NCBI GenBank assembly: GCA_023249375.1
Contig: JAHFCT010000026.1
Span: 1 to 46,991, forward strand
Length of the DNA stretch: 46,991 nucleotides
From: Gemmatimonadota bacterium
GTDB lineage: Bacteria; Gemmatimonadota; Gemmatimonadetes; Gemmatimonadales; Gemmatimonadaceae
Direction: 5' to 3'
Of this stretch, positions 22,932 through 31,565 are shown piece by piece (the first letter of the stretch is position 1; the number at the start of each line of letters is the position of its first letter). The notes beneath the pieces were generated by a model. That model did not search any database, was not told the DNA's origin, and saw only the letters and a program-made list of their open reading frames with translations. The position numbers and the translations under genes were made by a program.

Positions 22932-24632
22932 CTAGGTGTCGTACCCCGCCGCATGGATGTCCCGCACCGCCCGCCCTGACGGGTCCGTCATCTGCGCAAA
23001 CGCTGCGTCCCACCGCAGCGCGGTCTCGGTGCTGCATGCCACGCTCCGCTCCCACGGCACGCAGTGAACGGCTGTCGCACTCGGGAAGTGATGCTCGAAG
23101 AGCTGGCGGTACACATAGGCCTCCTTCGTCTCCGGTGTCTTTACCGGAAAGCGCTCCGCGGCGCCGCGCAGCATACTGTCCGTCACCTCGCGCTCGGCGT
23201 GTGCCTTGATGCCGTCGATCCACGCATAGCCGACGCCATCGGAGAACTGCTCCTTCTGCCGCCAGAGCACATCGTCGGGGATGGCGCCGTCGAAGGCGTG
23301 GCGCAGTGGGTACTTCTCGATGGGGCGCGGGCGCGGCGCGTTGCGCGGCAGCTTGCGCGAAGGATCGAACGACATCGCCACGTCGAGGAACTCGCGGTCG
23401 AGAAACGGCACCCGCACCTCAACCCCCCACGCGGCGCCGGACTTGTTGGCGCGGGCGCAATCGTACAAGTGGAGCTTCTCCAGCTTGCGCACGCACTCGG
23501 CGTGCAACTCGTCGCCGTCGGGCGCTTTGTGAAAGTAGAGGTACCCGCCAAAAATCTCGTCCGCTCCCTCGCCCGACAGCACCATCTTGATGCCCATCGC
23601 GCGGATCTTGCGCATCATCAGGTACATGGGCGTCGAGGCGCGAATTGTCGTGATGTCAAACGACTCGAGATGGTAGATCACGTCGGACAGTGCATCGAGG
23701 CCTTCCTGCACCGTGAAGTGGATCTCGTGATGAATGGCGCCAATCGACTCGGCGACCTTGCGGGCCGGGCCGAGGTCCGGTGCGCCCGCGAGGCCGACGG
23801 CGAAGGAGTGGATGCGCGGCCACCAGCTGGGCGTGGCGCCGCCTTCTTCCACGCGCCCTTCGCGATACTTCGCGGCAATCGATGCCACCAGCGAGGAGTC
23901 AACGCCGCCTGAGATGAGCACGCCGTACGGCACGTCGCACATCAGCTGGCGACGCACCGCGGCCTCGAGCGCTTCCCGCAGCACACCGGCGTCATACGGT
24001 GCGTCGGGCACGCGGCCCGGCTCGGCCCACGCCGGCTCGTAGTAGCGCTGAAAGCCCTTGTCCGCCTCGTGACCCAGATAGAAATGCCCCGGCGGAAACT
24101 CCTTGATGCGTTCGCAATGGCCCACCAGCGCCTTCATCTCGGAGGCCACGTACAGATGGTCGTGTCGGTCCCATCCCACATACAGTGGAATGACGCCGAT
24201 GGGATCGCGCGCAATGAGAAACGTGCGGCGCCGCGGATCGTGCAGGACAAATCCGAAGATGCCGTTCATCCGGTTCAGGAACTCGCGCGGTGACGTCTCG
24301 TCGTAGAGGTAGAGAATCACCTCGCAGTCGGAGCGCGTCTGGAAATCGTGCGCTCCCGTGAGTCCCTGGCGCAGCGCCTGATGGTTGTAGATCTCTCCGT
24401 TGACGGCGAGCACCGTGCCGGTGAGCGTGTCGATGAGTGGCTGGGCGCCGTGCTCGACGTCAACGATGGACAGCCGCTCATGGGCGAGTATCGCCTGCTC
24501 GTCGCTGTAGATCCCGCTCCAGTCGGGGCCGCGATGGCGGATCTTGCGCGCCATGGACAGCGCGTGGCGGCGCAGCTCCGCGGCGTTCGAGCGCGCGGGG
24601 TCAAGGCCGAGAATGGTGAGGATGCCGCACAT
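22932..24632 (-). CDS. asnB: Asparagine synthetase B (glutamine-hydrolysing)
   Basis: The 566-residue protein starts with the catalytic Cys2 (MCGIL). The N-terminal glutaminase domain (~2-200) contains RGPDWSG, HERLSIVD, NGEIYNH and the glutamine-binding SDCEVILYLY. The synthetase domain has the ATP-pyrophosphatase loop SGGVDSS (241-247) and GEGADEIFGGYLYFH, followed by RVPFLDREFLDVAM. It makes asparagine from aspartate, glutamine and ATP in the cytoplasm. Length matches E. coli-type AsnB (about 554 aa). A GGAG lies 8 nt before the ATG. Immediately upstream is a terminator preceded by an Asn-rich leader peptide, so expression is probably controlled by charged tRNA-Asn through attenuation. This is the only amino-acid biosynthesis gene on its transcript. 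Confidence 0.93.
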   Translation of the reverse strand: MCGILTILGLDPARSNAAELRRHALSMARKIRHRGPDWSGIYSDEQAILAHERLSIVDVEHGAQPLIDTLTGTVLAVNGEIYNHQALRQGLTGAHDFQTRSDCEVILYLYDETSPREFLNRMNGIFGFVLHDPRRRTFLIARDPIGVIPLYVGWDRHDHLYVASEMKALVGHCERIKEFPPGHFYLGHEADKGFQRYYEPAWAEPGRVPDAPYDAGVLREALEAAVRRQLMCDVPYGVLISGGVDSSLVASIAAKYREGRVEEGGATPSWWPRIHSFAVGLAGAPDLGPARKVAESIGAIHHEIHFTVQEGLDALSDVIYHLESFDITTIRASTPMYLMMRKIRAMGIKMVLSGEGADEIFGGYLYFHKAPDGDELHAECVRKLEKLHLYDCARANKSGAAWGVEVRVPFLDREFLDVAMSFDPSRKLPRNAPRPRPIEKYPLRHAFDGAIPDDVLWRQKEQFSDGVGYAWIDGIKAHAEREVTDSMLRGAAERFPVKTPETKEAYVYRQLFEHHFPSATAVHCVPWERSVACSTETALRWDAAFAQMTDPSGRAVRDIHAAGYDT

Positions 24633-24644
24633 GGAAACTCCACG

Positions 24645-24683
24645 AAAAAGAAAAGCCCCCGATTCGCCGCGGCGAATCGGGGG
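24645..24683 (-). terminator. Attenuator terminator in the asnB leader
   Basis: On the minus strand a perfect 28-nt palindrome (14+14; about 12 bp can stack around a small CGCG loop) begins CCCCCGATTCGCC. It is followed at once by CTTTTCTTTTT, a strong Rho-independent terminator. It ends only 12 nt before the asnB ATG, with just the Shine-Dalgarno sequence in between, so it cannot serve the upstream gene, which has its own hairpin at 24831-24854. Its position inside the 5' leader makes it a regulatory attenuator. Confidence 0.85.
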
Positions 24684-24738
24684 TGGCCGGAAGCTTGGGT
24701 TTCTACAACGCGCCCAAACCGGTCCACGCGCGATTCGC
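24672..24738 (-). promoter_or_regulatory. Predicted antiterminator of the asnB attenuator
   Basis: The leader segment GCGAATCG (24738-24731) is identical to part of the terminator's 3' arm. It is complementary to CGATTCGC in the terminator's 5' arm (24679-24672). The enclosed RNA also folds: GTGGACCGG (24727-24719) pairs with CCGGCCAC (24690-24683) with one bulged A, and TTTGGG (24718-24713) pairs with CCCAAG (24699-24694). The two stems stack with a symmetrical 3x3 internal loop. The result is one long hairpin that excludes the terminator. The leader-peptide stop codon lies in its apical loop, so a ribosome reaching the stop would break it. The pairings are seen in the sequence; the mechanism is inferred. 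Confidence 0.7.
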
Positions 24739-24789
24739 GCGAGGATTCCGATTGCTATTGCGGCTAAACCGCGAGAGGGTGTGCGTCAT
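24703..24789 (-). CDS. Asn-rich leader peptide of asnB (28 aa)
   Basis: The ORF starts at ATG 24789 and ends at TAG 24703. Residues 11-19 read N-S-N-R-N-P-R-A-N: four Asn, all AAT codons (24759, 24753, 24747 and 24735 are their first bases). Asn is otherwise sparse and usually AAC in this GC-rich sequence. The start codon lies 11 nt downstream of a TACTCT -10 element, so the transcript would be nearly leaderless; only a weak AGAG precedes it. Placement between promoter and terminator, the stop codon in the antiterminator loop and the regulated gene asnB together match classical ribosome-mediated attenuation as in trp, his or leu operons. The peptide itself probably has no function. Confidence 0.8.
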   Translation of the reverse strand: MTHTLSRFSRNSNRNPRANRAWTGLGAL

Positions 24790-24800
24790 GGGCTCTGCGA

Positions 24801-24830
24801 AGAGTATCGGTCCGCCATCGCAAAGGTCAA
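24801..24830 (-). promoter_or_regulatory. Promoter of the asnB leader
   Basis: On the minus strand TTGACC (24830-24825) and TACTCT (24806-24801) are spaced 18 bp. An overlapping GATACT at 24808-24803 gives 16 bp. Transcription would start around 24795, a few nt before the leader-peptide ATG. Confidence 0.6.
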
Positions 24831-24854
24831 GCGGGGCGGCGCGACCCGCCCCGC
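24831..24854 (-). terminator. Hairpin after the metallo-beta-lactamase-fold gene
   Basis: GCGGGGCGG and CCGCCCCGC form a 9-bp stem with a 6-nt loop, 7 nt after the stop codon at 24861. It abuts the -35 of the asnB promoter, so upstream transcription ends just where the asnB leader begins. There is no T-tract. Confidence 0.5.
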
Positions 24855-24860
24855 CCGCTC

Positions 24861-25889
24861 CTACGCCGTCAGTTCGTCGTACGCCGCGGTCAGCACGCGT
24901 TCGATCAGCGGTCCGTGATCGGGGAAGCCCTTCAGCGGATCCGTGATCTTGATGACGACGTCGCGCGGCCTGCCCGCCTTGATCTCGCCGCGCACGAACT
25001 CGAGCAGCGCGCCGAGATAGTCGCGCTGGTACTGCAAATCGGCGCGGTTCCCCGTGGCCTTGAACGCCGGATTCGCGTGGCCAAAGATGAAAATGGTGTC
25101 GGCGCCGTGATCCTTGATGACGCCGTCCAGCACCTCGCTCCAGTGCGCGATATTGGCGCCGCCGGGGCGATCGATGACTGGATGCCGGCGATTGAACACG
25201 AGATCGCCCACATGCGCGACATTGGCCTTCTCGAACGTGATCACCGCGTCGCCGCCCGTATGCGCAGCACCGTAGTACTTGAGTGACATCGTCTCACCGC
25301 CCACGGCCTCGCGCCACGTCGTGTCAAAGAGCGTGTCGGCGTAGACCTGCTCTGGTGGCGGCGGCGGAACCGGCGCTCCGGCTGCAGGCGGCGGCGCGTT
25401 GCGCGCCGCCAGCGCCGCGCGCTCAGCCGCCTCGCGCTGCAACCTCGGCACGTTGGCGTGCGCGAGAATCTTCTTGGCCGCCGGCCGGAAGACCCCGTTG
25501 CCGCCCGTATGGTCGCCGTGATGGTGCGTGTTCACCAGGAAGTCGAGCGGACGCGAGGAGGTGCGCGCGTTCACCGCATCGAGACAGATCTTCGCGGTGT
25601 CGGGGAACTGCGAGTCGACGACGACGGCGCTCTTGCCGTCGATGTGCCAGCCGATGGTGCCTCCGCGGCCGGTGAATGTGCCCACCGTGCCACGCACGAG
25701 CGTGAGCAGGTCGGGCTCCTGCACGGTGGTGCCCTGGGCAAGCAGCGATCGCCAATCGATGGCGGTGGCCGCGAGCGCGAGCGTGGAGGACTGGAGAAAA
25801 CGGCGACGATTGATGGGCATGGTGGAAGGCACGGGAAGGATCGGCGTGATGGGCATCGACCAGGGCCGCGCGCAGAGCAGCGCCCGCAA
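24861..25889 (-). CDS. TAT-exported metallo-beta-lactamase-fold hydrolase
   Basis: I use the TTG at 25889 because a perfect AGGAGG sits 7 nt upstream; ATGs at 25856 and 25820 are alternatives. The product (342 aa from TTG) carries a twin-arginine signal INRRRFLQSSTLALAATA, which the ATG at 25820 would also retain. The MBL motif HHHGDH (122-127), a later AAHTGGDAVI and GDLVFNRRHP, and a C-terminal GHANP give the zinc ligands of the lactamase-like fold. It is closest in pattern to class-B-like 'MBL fold metallo-hydrolase' proteins of unknown substrate, not to proven beta-lactamases. A Pro-rich insert (PPPAAGAPVPPPPP) lies mid-protein. It follows the TAT-type amidohydrolase on the same strand by 46 nt. 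Confidence 0.75.
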   Translation of the reverse strand: MRALLCARPWSMPITPILPVPSTMPINRRRFLQSSTLALAATAIDWRSLLAQGTTVQEPDLLTLVRGTVGTFTGRGGTIGWHIDGKSAVVVDSQFPDTAKICLDAVNARTSSRPLDFLVNTHHHGDHTGGNGVFRPAAKKILAHANVPRLQREAAERAALAARNAPPPAAGAPVPPPPPEQVYADTLFDTTWREAVGGETMSLKYYGAAHTGGDAVITFEKANVAHVGDLVFNRRHPVIDRPGGANIAHWSEVLDGVIKDHGADTIFIFGHANPAFKATGNRADLQYQRDYLGALLEFVRGEIKAGRPRDVVIKITDPLKGFPDHGPLIERVLTAAYDELTA

Positions 25890-27845: not shown

Positions 27846-30206
27846 TTAGAACATGTAGATCAGCTTCGCGATCAGCGTGCCGCCGGTGTACGGGCGGTTG
27901 CCGTAGCCGGTCGTCAGTGCGCCAAGCGGATCAATGCGCGGCGAGCCGTCGGCCAGGTTGGTCGTGGCGAAGTCCTTGATGTCCAGCTTCTCGTACCAGT
28001 AGCCCACGCCCACGCCGATGTTCGCGCGGAACATGTGCTTCACATCCACCTTCATCTGCGTCCACGTGTTGGTCACGTTGGGCTCGGCGATGAAGCACGG
28101 GACCAGCACGACTCCGGCCAGCGAGGTCGTGCACGGCTTGGTGTCGCCCGTCGTCAGGATGCTGTTGTTCACCAGCGCCGTGAGGCGCGGGCCGCCAAAG
28201 TTGAAGGCGTTGTCCGAGTTGCTGTAGTTGTAGCTGAACTTCACGTCGGTGTTCGGGAAGAGCTTGGTCAGCTCCACGAATGCGCCGGCCGTCTTCACGT
28301 CTTCCGCATTGTCCAGCGACCAATTGCGGGCGGGATCGGTGAAGCTCTGGTAGAGCGCGCCCGCCGTGATCGGGTTCGCGTTGCGCGACATCTGGTTGGT
28401 CGTGACCTTGTCCATCCCGTAGTTCACGCCCAGCGTGACCTTGTCGTTCGGATAAAAGTTCGCGGTCACGCTCGTCGACGTCGTCTTGTTGGACAGCAAG
28501 CCGAACTCATGCCCTTCGCCCGAGTACTTGTCGTCCATGGCGGCGAACGTGAGGTTGACGTCGAACTTGTTGGTCGGGTTGAGCGACAGGATCACCTGGC
28601 TCTTGGTGCGGTCCATGTCGGCTTCGTCGTAGAACCGAATGCCGCCCTGGCTGCCCGTCTCCTCGACGTACTCCTGCGAGAAGCCGCTGCCAACGCGCGA
28701 CGTCTTCTCGAAGATGCCGCGGAGCGTGCCGTACTTGTTCTGGTACGCGTCGAGCGAGAAGCGGAACGTGTAGTCCGTCATGTCGCCGAACGCGCGCCCT
28801 TCGCGCTTGAAGTCGTCCATGATGTAGCCGATCTTCGCCTGCGTGAACTTGTGCGGCAGCATGAACGTGGCACCCGCCTCCATCGTGTTCTGGCGGATGT
28901 TGAAGTGCTCCGTGCCTTCGCCCGGCAGGTATTCCGGCACCGCGTCAAAGCGCACGCTGTAGCTGTAATCGTAGAACGGCGTGCTGTTCTCGTGATCATT
29001 GAAGCGGTACTTCATGTCGAACGCGAAGTAGTCGGTCGGCCGCGTCGAGAAGTTGATGAGGGCGTTGAGCCCCTTCACCTCCGCCTGCGCCGACGCGCGC
29101 GGCAGCGCCGCGAGCCCCGGGAAGTACAGATACGTCGCGGCGTTGGCGATGTTCGCGTTGGTCGTGAACGGCATCAGCGCCTCGTCCTGCGTCATCGAGA
29201 CATACGCGATCTGGCCGTTCAGCACCGTGTGCCCCGGCATCTTATACAGCCCGAGGACGCGGAACATGTTCATCTGGCTGCTGGGCGGCATCGACATGGC
29301 GCCCTTGGCGGGACCGTTGCCGTTGCTGTAGCCGCTGGCATCCCACGGACCGTTCGGCGGCGTCTTGCCGTTGCTGTAGTCCGTCGCGAAGAGCGGGCTG
29401 TCCCACGTCAGCGTCGAGAACTGGTTCTTGAAGAACGAACCCTGGTACTCGGCGCGCACCATGCCCCACGCCGGCTTGTTGTACTCGATGCCCGCGGTCA
29501 GCTCGTTGGTCGAGTTGTCCAGGGCCATCGGCAGCTCTTCCGCGTTGTTGAACGCGAAGGCCGCGCCCCACGGCTGGTTGCCGCTCTTCTTGATGTTCTT
29601 GAACGAGAAATCGACGTTGGTTACGTCGTTCAGCCGGTACTTGAGCGCAAGGGCCAGCTGGTTGCGCTGGGCCGACATCGGGAAGTTCACGGCAATGCTG
29701 CGGTAGATCGACGCCGAATCGCCCGCGTACTGCGCGGCGGTCGAGACGATGCCGATGACGCCGGCTGTCTTCGCCTGCACCTTGGCGCGAAGCGTCGGGT
29801 CGAGCGTCCAGACGTTGTTGCCCGCGTAGCGATACGCGGTCTTCGTGTTGTACGCGTAGTTCAGCGGCTGGCCCGTGTAATCGAGCGAGATCTTCAGCTT
29901 GCCGAACTGGTTGTAGTTGATCGAGTAGAACTGGTCGTCGTTGCCGACGTTGCCCGCGCTGAAATCGAACGCCGAGGCGTCGGTTTCCTTGCCGATCCCG
30001 ATCTTGCTCGCCAGGCCGCTCTTCAGGTCCTGGTAGCGCTGATAGCGGGCCTCATCACCCGTGGTGGTCGTGGACCGGAAGCCGAGCTCCCAGGTCTGGT
30101 CCCATGCCGGAGCCTTCGCCGGCGCCGCGGCCTTCTGCTGAGCACCCGCCACGCTGGCGGAGGCGAGCAGCAAGAGCGCGGCAGAAATCATGTATCGAGT
30201 GCGCAT
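27846..30206 (-). CDS. MtrB/PioB-family outer-membrane porin for a decaheme cytochrome
   Basis: The 786-residue protein has a signal peptide (MRTRYMISAALLLLASASVAGA) and a long series of amphipathic strands with aromatic girdles, ending ...KLIYMF with a C-terminal Phe typical of outer-membrane barrels. ELGFRSTTTTGDEARYQRYQDLKSG near the start and repeated 'YxFNDHENSTPFYDYSY'-like strands match the MtrB/PioB family. The N-terminal CxxC of Shewanella MtrB is absent. MtrB/PioB sheathes an MtrA-type decaheme cytochrome to carry electrons across the outer membrane. It lies 18 nt after the decaheme gene with a strong GGGAGAGGGAGA ribosome binding region, so both proteins are made together. No outer-surface multiheme (MtrC/OmcA) gene is present in the window. 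Confidence 0.88.
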   Translation of the reverse strand: MRTRYMISAALLLLASASVAGAQQKAAAPAKAPAWDQTWELGFRSTTTTGDEARYQRYQDLKSGLASKIGIGKETDASAFDFSAGNVGNDDQFYSINYNQFGKLKISLDYTGQPLNYAYNTKTAYRYAGNNVWTLDPTLRAKVQAKTAGVIGIVSTAAQYAGDSASIYRSIAVNFPMSAQRNQLALALKYRLNDVTNVDFSFKNIKKSGNQPWGAAFAFNNAEELPMALDNSTNELTAGIEYNKPAWGMVRAEYQGSFFKNQFSTLTWDSPLFATDYSNGKTPPNGPWDASGYSNGNGPAKGAMSMPPSSQMNMFRVLGLYKMPGHTVLNGQIAYVSMTQDEALMPFTTNANIANAATYLYFPGLAALPRASAQAEVKGLNALINFSTRPTDYFAFDMKYRFNDHENSTPFYDYSYSVRFDAVPEYLPGEGTEHFNIRQNTMEAGATFMLPHKFTQAKIGYIMDDFKREGRAFGDMTDYTFRFSLDAYQNKYGTLRGIFEKTSRVGSGFSQEYVEETGSQGGIRFYDEADMDRTKSQVILSLNPTNKFDVNLTFAAMDDKYSGEGHEFGLLSNKTTSTSVTANFYPNDKVTLGVNYGMDKVTTNQMSRNANPITAGALYQSFTDPARNWSLDNAEDVKTAGAFVELTKLFPNTDVKFSYNYSNSDNAFNFGGPRLTALVNNSILTTGDTKPCTTSLAGVVLVPCFIAEPNVTNTWTQMKVDVKHMFRANIGVGVGYWYEKLDIKDFATTNLADGSPRIDPLGALTTGYGNRPYTGGTLIAKLIYMF

Positions 30207-30224
30207 CTTAGTGTCTCCCTCTCC

Positions 30225-31205
30225 CTAGCGCAGGAGCGCCTTGCCGTTGGGGGAATTGGACCCGTGAATCTGCTGGTGGCAGTTCATGCAGGACCGTCCC
30301 GTGATCTTGTTCGCGTTGGTCGACGTCTTCTGGACAAATGCGTCGTAGATCGTCGGCGGATGGCGCGACGTGACGTGGCAGCGCTGGCAGATGTACGGCG
30401 CCTTGGCGACGAGCATGCGGTCATTGCTCGACCCATGCGGGTCGTGGCAGGTGACACATGAGTTGGCGACCGGGGCGTGCTCCCAGAGGTACGGGCCACG
30501 CTTCTCCTGGTGGCAGCTCACGCAGCTCTCGTCGACGTTGGTGCCGGCGCGCAGCATCTTGACGTTGGGCGAGCCGTGGATGTTATGGCACGACGAGCAC
30601 GCGAGCTTGTCTTCGCGCACCGGCATGTGGTTGAAGCGCGTGATCTTGTTGACGATCTGCTGGTGGCAGCTGGCGCAGAGCTTCGTCTGCGACGCTTCCT
30701 TCAGCTGGTTCGCGCCCTTGGGGCTGTGGATGCTGTGGCAGGACGAGCACGAGACACTGCGCGCGTCATGCTTGCTGTTGGCCCAGAACGCGTGCTCGCC
30801 GGAGGTATGGCAGCTCGTGCAGGCGGCCGACGCCTCGCTGGCGCTGACCTTGTTGAACTGCATCGGCTTCACCTTCTCCGGGTCATCCGCATGCTTGCTG
30901 CCCGGGCCGTGGCAGGACTCGCAGCCCTTGCCGCCCGCCGGGGTGTGCGCATCGGCCGCCTTCGTGTGCAGGCCGCCGCTTCCCTTCTTGTTCTCGTGGC
31001 AGCCGAGGCACGTCTCCTCGCCGATGTAGGTCGCGCCAGCGACCAGTGCGACGTCGGCCTTCGGCGCGGCCTTCTGCGCCTTGGCGGCCTGGCCGCTGAC
31101 TGCGGCTGGCGCGAACGCCACCGCGGCCACGAGCACACCGCTCACGAGCCAGGACATCGGCCGCATGGAGCGAATGCCACTACCTCGAATCTTGGGAAAT
31201 GTCAT
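30225..31205 (-). CDS. Periplasmic decaheme c-type cytochrome, MtrA/DmsE family
   Basis: I start at the ATG at 31205, 4-5 nt after AGGAGGG, giving 326 residues. A signal peptide ends near AAVSGQA. Ten CxxCH heme sites are visible, starting at Cys66, 95, 129, 153, 177, 203, 228, 250, 273 and 306, with extra histidines spaced to serve as distal ligands. Ten hemes in ~330 residues is exactly the size of MtrA, PioA and DmsE. These span the outer membrane inside an MtrB-type barrel and pass electrons to or from extracellular iron, other solids, or a terminal reductase. The porin gene follows directly. The direction of electron flow (Fe(II) oxidation or metal/DMSO-type reduction) cannot be read from the sequence. 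Confidence 0.92.
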   Translation of the reverse strand: MTFPKIRGSGIRSMRPMSWLVSGVLVAAVAFAPAAVSGQAAKAQKAAPKADVALVAGATYIGEETCLGCHENKKGSGGLHTKAADAHTPAGGKGCESCHGPGSKHADDPEKVKPMQFNKVSASEASAACTSCHTSGEHAFWANSKHDARSVSCSSCHSIHSPKGANQLKEASQTKLCASCHQQIVNKITRFNHMPVREDKLACSSCHNIHGSPNVKMLRAGTNVDESCVSCHQEKRGPYLWEHAPVANSCVTCHDPHGSSNDRMLVAKAPYICQRCHVTSRHPPTIYDAFVQKTSTNANKITGRSCMNCHQQIHGSNSPNGKALLR

Positions 31206-31565
31206 GGCACCCTCCTGAGGTGCGCACACTAGAAATGAGTTGCTGTAACTGCCCACGCGACGCATCGCACACCGCCAGATGGAGGTGGGGCACCGCGAAA
31301 TGTGCCGTTGAGAACGCCACTCATCTGTCGGGCCTCATACGCAACGTATTGCGGGACAACCTTATACATCGCCTAAGGCAAATGACTACGTGTTTCTACG
31401 CGACACCGCGCGGGTCATGCTCCTATTGCGAATCGCGCGGCTCGGCGTACGCGCCGTCAGCCACTGAAGTGCCGGAGTCCACGCCACTTACCGCTGGTCG
31501 CAGCATCGACGCCACGGGCGCCTCGCCATTCATTTACTGTCAGGACAACCCCACCCCATCACCGC
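31206..31565. other. 360-bp divergent intergenic region with overlapping inverted repeats
   Basis: No gene is seen. Two overlapping palindromes occur at 31337-31353: ATACG-CAA-CGTAT (31337-31349) and CGCAA-CGTA-TTGCG (31340-31353). A TATAAG -10-like element on the minus strand at about 31361-31366 lies upstream of them relative to the cytochrome gene. These are candidates for an operator and promoter of the cytochrome operon. No FNR-type TTGAT-N4-ATCAA site was found. Confidence 0.3.

Follow-up and report, generated by a model that had tools for sequence, protein, structure and literature searches.

Transcription of asnB in a bacterium of the phylum Gemmatimonadota (Gemmatimonadaceae) is very probably controlled by ribosome-mediated attenuation that senses the charging of Asn-tRNA. 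The gene and its leader lie on contig JAHFCT010000026.1 (assembly GCA_023249375.1), of which we analysed positions 1–46,991 (hereafter, the window); the putative attenuator occupies positions 24645–24830 of the minus strand. We observed the component parts and their conservation, constraint on the leader codons, the pairing potential for alternative structures, the geometry of ribosome and RNA, and a recurring link to asparagine synthesis.

The initial annotation had described a promoter, an ORF of 28 codons that includes four AAT within nine residues, an antiterminator and then a palindromic U-tract terminator ending 12 nt before a gene that makes asparagine, and each of these is present on the minus strand. 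The σ70-type promoter (24801–24830), seen in the sequence and by promoter scan, consists of TTGACC (24830–24825) and TACTCT (24806–24801) separated by 18 nt; the version returned by the scanner is TTGACC-16-GATACT (9/12, with 0.0 expected from shuffling). The ATG of the leader peptide ORF (24703–24789; MTHTLSRFSRNSNRNPRANRAWTGLGAL, 28 codons and a stop) follows 11 nt 3′ of the −10 box. Sequence, scan and alignment agree on an intrinsic terminator at 24645–24683, which has a 12-bp stem (arms CCCCCGATTCGCCG and CGGCGAATCGGGGG), a 4-nt loop and a U-tract, CTTTTCTTTTT, that stops 12 nt short of the asnB ATG at 24632. The GGAG Shine–Dalgarno sequence of asnB (24638–24641) is retained by most relatives. 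The gene itself (22932–24632) encodes a full-length, glutamine-hydrolysing asparagine synthase B of 566 amino acids, identified by profile and structure matches (808 bits against NF006949, for which the cut-off is 499; E = 7e-215 against E. coli AsnB, 1ct9). No tRNA genes were found near the leader. Elsewhere in the window, at 27846–31265 (minus strand), a decaheme cytochrome (TIGR03508, 245 bits) adjoins an MtrB/PioB-like outer-membrane protein (TIGR03509, 182 bits, below the cut-off); the two are possibly an extracellular electron transfer pair.

Asparagine codons of the leader peptide

The leader peptide has Asn at codons 11, 13, 15 and 19, all of them AAT. Among the 621 short ORFs of the window, this one is alone in having four Asn within nine codons, and in shuffled sequence the frequency is 1 in 5761. 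In nine coding sequences of the window that we picked, AAT accounts for 18% of Asn codons (31/168), compared with 4/4 in the leader (p about 0.001). Both the clustering of Asn and the use of AAT exceed chance. Leader alignment and geometry single out codons 11 (24759–24757), 13 (24753–24751; the invariant position) and 15 (24747–24745) as the regulatory ones (24745–24759 overall); codon 19 lies inside the antiterminator arm, a position at which a stalled ribosome would be an obstacle and not an aid.

Across 48 distinct leader peptides, the key Asn, nine codons before a conserved Trp, is present in every one (42 AAT, 6 AAC), and the position two codons before it is Asn in 35 (30 AAT, 5 AAC); codons that neighbour the key Asn vary. 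Because the third base is free and Asn is kept, it is the meaning of the codon that is conserved and not an RNA motif, as predicted for a signal that is read by a ribosome. A repeat of AAT acting as an RNA or DNA motif is ruled out, as AAC substitutes at the same positions and, in one leader (L040), at every Asn codon. The leaders are also rich in Arg, which we considered as the sensed amino acid and ruled out: in a set of 15 GC-rich leaders, the enrichment is 7.1-fold for Asn and at most 1.4-fold for any other residue, with Arg only 1.2-fold over background, and leaders from Flavobacteriaceae have no Arg. No other short ORF in the loci of those 15 leaders has four Asn in nine codons.

The leader ATG lies 6–12 nt after the −10 box in same-genus Gemmatimonadota, and 15–16 nt after it in the two Holophagaceae loci measured. 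The shorter distance suggests that translation of the leader peptide in Gemmatimonadota is likely to be leaderless or nearly so, judged from an inferred transcription start. AsnRS is encoded in the genomes checked, so that the charging of tRNA-Asn depends on free Asn.

Mutually exclusive RNA structures

Folding of the leader RNA, a check that had been proposed with the initial annotation, gave z = −3.4. The whole-leader fold predicts a 1:2 protector hairpin (AAUCGGAAUCCUCGCGCGAAUCGCGCGUGGACCGGUU, 24717–24753) that contains the 5′ arm of the antiterminator (region 2; GCGAATCGCGCGTGGACCGG, 24719–24738). This arm mimics the terminator 3′ arm, and pairing analysis shows that its partner, the antiterminator 3′ arm, is at the same time the terminator 5′ arm (region 3; CCGGCCACCCCCGATTCGC, 24672–24690). 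Antiterminator and terminator (region 3:4) have this strand in common and are mutually exclusive. In the window, the duplex of leader arm and terminator arm is stronger than in 983 of 1000 shuffles.

Alignment of related asnB upstream regions, also suggested at the outset, bears this out. Besides conserved Asn codons, it contains a leader arm, GCG[A/G]ATCG, that copies the terminator 3′ arm and pairs with the terminator 5′ arm, CGAT[T/C]CGC. Antiterminator pairs are formed in 97.3% of cells over 54 sequences, falling to 31–53% after sliding by 1–3 columns, and 4 sequences carry a compensatory double change from A-U to G-C. This covariation is confined to two pairs because most pairs hardly vary. 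Shuffled 3′ letters never match the observed pairing percentage or covariation score, in a test that is inflated by the relatedness of the sequences. Terminator and protector pairs are formed in 97.9% (54 sequences), with the core helix of the protector 99.2% paired, and a CCA 5′ of the terminator stem is conserved although it lies outside the terminator.

The spacing from Asn codon 13 in the A site to region 2 is exactly 12 nt. RNA freed by a ribosome at codon 13, before region 4 exists, folds as the antiterminator (−31.8 kcal/mol); RNA past a ribosome at the stop codon folds as the terminator (−25.7 kcal/mol); and, for the whole leader without a ribosome, the predicted fold is protector plus terminator. 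By both geometry and folding, a ribosome on the control codons leaves the antiterminator free to form, and one at the stop codon leaves the terminator free to form, as is expected of an attenuator. Before region 4 is made, the antiterminator is favoured by energy alone even in ribosome-free RNA, so the untranslated state is not clearly ‘off’.

By analogy with the established attenuator mechanism (PMC1183508), from which we infer that the ribosome stalls, that stalling depends on Asn and that read-through changes, RNA polymerase would start just 5′ of the leader ATG, and a ribosome would trail it along the leader ORF. Under a shortage of Asn-tRNA, this ribosome would pause once Asn codon 13 (or 11) occupies its A site and mask the upstream half of the protector hairpin, freeing region 2. 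Region 2 could then pair with region 3 before region 4 is made, so that no terminator would form and asnB would be transcribed. When Asn-tRNA is plentiful, the ribosome would reach the UAG codon, 13 nt past region 2, and disrupt the antiterminator; region 3 would then pair with region 4, forming an intrinsic terminator that would end transcription.

The strongest competing explanation, although an improbable one, is that the terminator is constitutive or incidental and the short ORF meaningless, with conservation reflecting recent common descent. The leaders do share a common descent, and a large part of the arm sequence hardly varies. Against this, Asn is retained in 48 of 48 leaders, although the third base of its codon and the neighbouring codons vary; a plain terminator would give antiterminator pairing no reason to persist; and the same pattern recurs in unrelated leaders before unrelated asparagine synthetases (see below). 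The attenuation of asnB through an Asn leader, as first proposed from the sequence, is thus supported by synonymous-only variation at the key codon, antiterminator pairing and exact stall geometry, as well as by Asn leaders before non-homologous asparagine synthetases.

Distribution of Asn leaders and related scaffolds

Seven genomes of the same genus carry an orthologous asnB (85–89% identity). In all seven, the leader is rich in Asn and is accompanied by the arm CGCGCGAATCGCGCGTGG, in which L006 has a single A to G change, by CCACCCCCGATTCGC and by a U-tract. The −35 and −10 elements of the promoter, with a spacing of 17–18 nt, are kept in 8/8 same-genus loci, including the window, and in Geothrix. 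The closest asnB genes outside the genus are those of Geothrix and other Holophagaceae (Acidobacteriota), which are 81–87% identical and preceded by the same leader unit; 40-odd Geothrix and other Holophagaceae genomes retain all of its parts. We searched for the same asnB accompanied by a leader without Asn codons or without a terminator, a combination that would speak against attenuation; all eight same-genus loci keep both features, as do those of Holophagaceae wherever the leader is readable. A metallo-hydrolase gene lies upstream in L005, L007, L008, L009 and L010, as in the window, and was not found there in L006, L011 or the Geothrix-type loci. As this neighbour varies, the leader travels with asnB and not with the adjacent gene.

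A covariance model built from 14 leaders and run on 93 genomes of the class that includes Holophagaceae matched 53, about 43 of them strongly; nearly all loci read from the strong-match group precede asnB. In a tree of asnB, the genes from Gemmatimonadota group together (support 93/81) and are nested in a paraphyletic set of Holophagaceae genes; not all inner forks are strong. Leader and gene were likely transferred together from Holophagaceae to Gemmatimonadota, a direction to which the tree points but which it does not prove.

The same layout, in RNA of unrelated sequence, recurs with Asn leaders elsewhere, in two Gemmatimonadota groups before an asnB that is not orthologous to that of the window. 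In the same genus, an asnB of another subfamily (L013 in G003; 57% identity) follows an Asn leader (MTLSHAAAGRSPNFGSGSSACANRNNGNCEPSQRAGD, with N-R-N-N-G-N; 1293–1500) that, like its terminator, is unrelated in sequence to that of the window. A separate asnB clade in family f6 (L160–L164) has leaders such as MRATGCTLNNNNNRNPRTLCARAGCDV and MTALFRNRNRNRNPLSPGSRGWGCPSP; pairing of leader arm and terminator arm is better than in 482–497 of 500 shuffles for L161–L164, and a simple test of the leader-to-terminator duplex is not better than shuffles for L160, L122, L123 and L191. Five genomes of one Flavobacteriaceae genus (Bacteroidota) encode leaders including MTFNNLNNNNFT and MNNNNLNNNNYT before asnB, with their own terminator (L257, in which the leader is 118 nt before asnB, and L260–L263). 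These leaders are unrelated in sequence and contain a conserved ACTTGTC[AG]AGA element that could pair with the terminator 3′ arm.

Other families of asparagine synthetase are represented as well. One Asn leader precedes asnA (L123; TIGR00669, 406 bits); apart from L123 and L145, no asnA gene was found to have one. Another precedes a gene for an AsnRS-like protein (L122) that matches an archaeal asparagine synthetase (3p8t, E = 2.7e-6) and scores 93 bits against NF005054, below the cut-off of 309. The pairing of Asn leader and AsnRS-like gene occurs in Gemmatimonadota (L122 and L191) and Holophagae (L229, L231 and L233), and this poorly annotated family may represent archaeal-type asparagine synthetases in bacteria. 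In L230 (201–480), the terminator after an Asn leader is broken, and all that remains of the AsnRS-like asparagine synthetase is its tail; a deletion seems to have removed the gene. Asn leaders thus span three phyla and three unrelated families of asparagine synthetase, in what looks like repeated invention. They are not a general feature of asnB: among the distant loci L042–L113 (excluding the Geothrix locus L060), a leader is convincing only in L072.

In Geothrix and its relatives, the covariance model described above also detects aromatic-codon leaders 5′ of DAHP synthase (MSPRFTHRYWTSRADRAWSGQGPS; best E = 4.9e-15) and 5′ of the chorismate mutase-prephenate dehydratase gene, pheA (MTHSRRFFPFSFRTSGARVGGV). 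Leaders rich in Tyr, Phe, Trp and His (MTPRFHTYYWFPHTDRAWHGEGPA and MTRRLHHHYYRPSRADRAWSGQGLS) precede DAHP synthase in Holophagae (L140, L141, L142, L238, L239, L240, L243 and L253), whereas in L139, L143 and L144 Phe and Tyr leaders precede class II DAHP synthase (MNILRTSFYYFGFRTSARVGGGLN) and chorismate mutase-prephenate dehydratase. The stretch TCGCGCGGATCGTGCGTGG occurs both in the aromatic leader of L140 and in the Asn leader of L035. These Geothrix-type aromatic attenuators (L139–L144 and L238–L240) are homologous in scaffold to the Asn leader; in place of Asn, their control codons specify Phe, Tyr and Trp (His), and the gene downstream is a correspondingly different one. Pro-rich leaders, with weaker matches to the model, are found in Holophagae before sequences that resemble proC and proB (L241, L245, L247 and L248, L249, L256) and are possible proline attenuators. 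In L235 (201–360), a leader with four Gln codons (MRSSSRQQQQNPRPPANREGTREGRG), similar arms and a terminator lies before an ORF and is a possible glutamine attenuator.

A RAxRAW-G-G module is common to the leaders, suggesting one scaffold in which codons have been exchanged. We put at about even the chance that a single homologous scaffold has been retargeted by codon swaps to Asn (asnB and the archaeal-type synthetase), to Phe, Tyr, Trp and His (DAHP synthase), and possibly to Pro (proB and proC) and Gln. If so, attenuators would acquire new amino-acid specificities as codons are replaced on a portable RNA cassette, one that passes between phyla as well.

The comparison bears on whether the RNA might instead be read directly, as an Asn or Gln riboswitch or by a nitrogen-responsive RNA-binding protein, with its Asn codons incidental. 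We consider this very unlikely. The fold is strong and conserved, and the RNA has a very weak similarity to the nitrogen-stress RNA NsiR1 in Rfam (19.5 bits, for which the gathering score is 39; E = 0.6). No Rfam family reaches its threshold, however, and this sub-threshold match is all that a search for T-boxes, riboswitches and other Rfam RNAs returned. The arms differ wholly among the f1, f6, L013 and Flavobacteriaceae groups, all of which nevertheless have Asn codons in common; in addition, genes for other amino acids are preceded by homologous scaffolds that carry other codons. It is just as improbable that the translated leader acts through translational coupling, Rho or mRNA stability, for although mycobacterial cys operon leader peptides lack intrinsic terminators (PMC1262725), almost every sequence here has a 12-bp, GC-rich stem with a U-tract, and the terminator 5′ arm is the exact partner of the leader arm.

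Comparison with known systems

Attenuation by an Asn leader peptide differs from the established routes of asparagine control. T-box control of asn genes in Firmicutes senses the charging of tRNA-Asn and acts by termination; the T-box RNA binds tRNA directly and, unlike the asnB leader, needs no translation. No T-box was matched with Rfam in the interval 24000–25500 at E values of up to 1. In enteric bacteria, asnA is under asparagine-responsive control by AsnC, a DNA-binding protein that senses free Asn and involves no leader peptide.

Leader-peptide attenuation is a textbook mechanism with few known specificities, to which the asnB case adds Asn. According to a survey from 2010, the only groups with demonstrated leader peptides before the Firmicutes cases of that study were Proteobacteria and Actinobacteria, and almost no predicted attenuator of Acidobacteria had an assigned function (PMC2965389). 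The initial annotation had suggested that an Asn leader peptide may be undescribed; we found no description of an Asn leader-peptide attenuator in the literature searched, and priority is not certain, as the comparative study of Lopatovskaya et al. (2010) could hold such a prediction. The leaders described here yield a rule by which many short ORFs that now lack annotation can be annotated. Homologous leaders that differ in their codons also offer a natural series for directly testing how attenuator specificity evolves.

The His leader peptides of hisS and hisZ in bacilli (PMC2965389), which were found by terminator-centred comparison, are likewise a case of leader-peptide attenuation outside Proteobacteria and Actinobacteria; they differ from the asnB leader in their His codons, their aminoacyl-tRNA synthetase-type targets and their occurrence in Firmicutes. 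The classical trp, his, leu, ilv, thr and pheA attenuators of E. coli and Salmonella have the same arrangement of a promoter, a short ORF with clustered codons for the product of the pathway, a choice between protector, antiterminator and terminator, and a U-tract terminator before a biosynthetic gene. The asnB leader is distinguished from these by its specificity for Asn, its target, its ATG 6–12 nt past the −10 box (in Gemmatimonadota) and its occurrence in Gemmatimonadota and Acidobacteriota, between which leader and gene apparently moved together. It is apparently a new specificity, with a near-leaderless leader, of the textbook attenuation mechanism.
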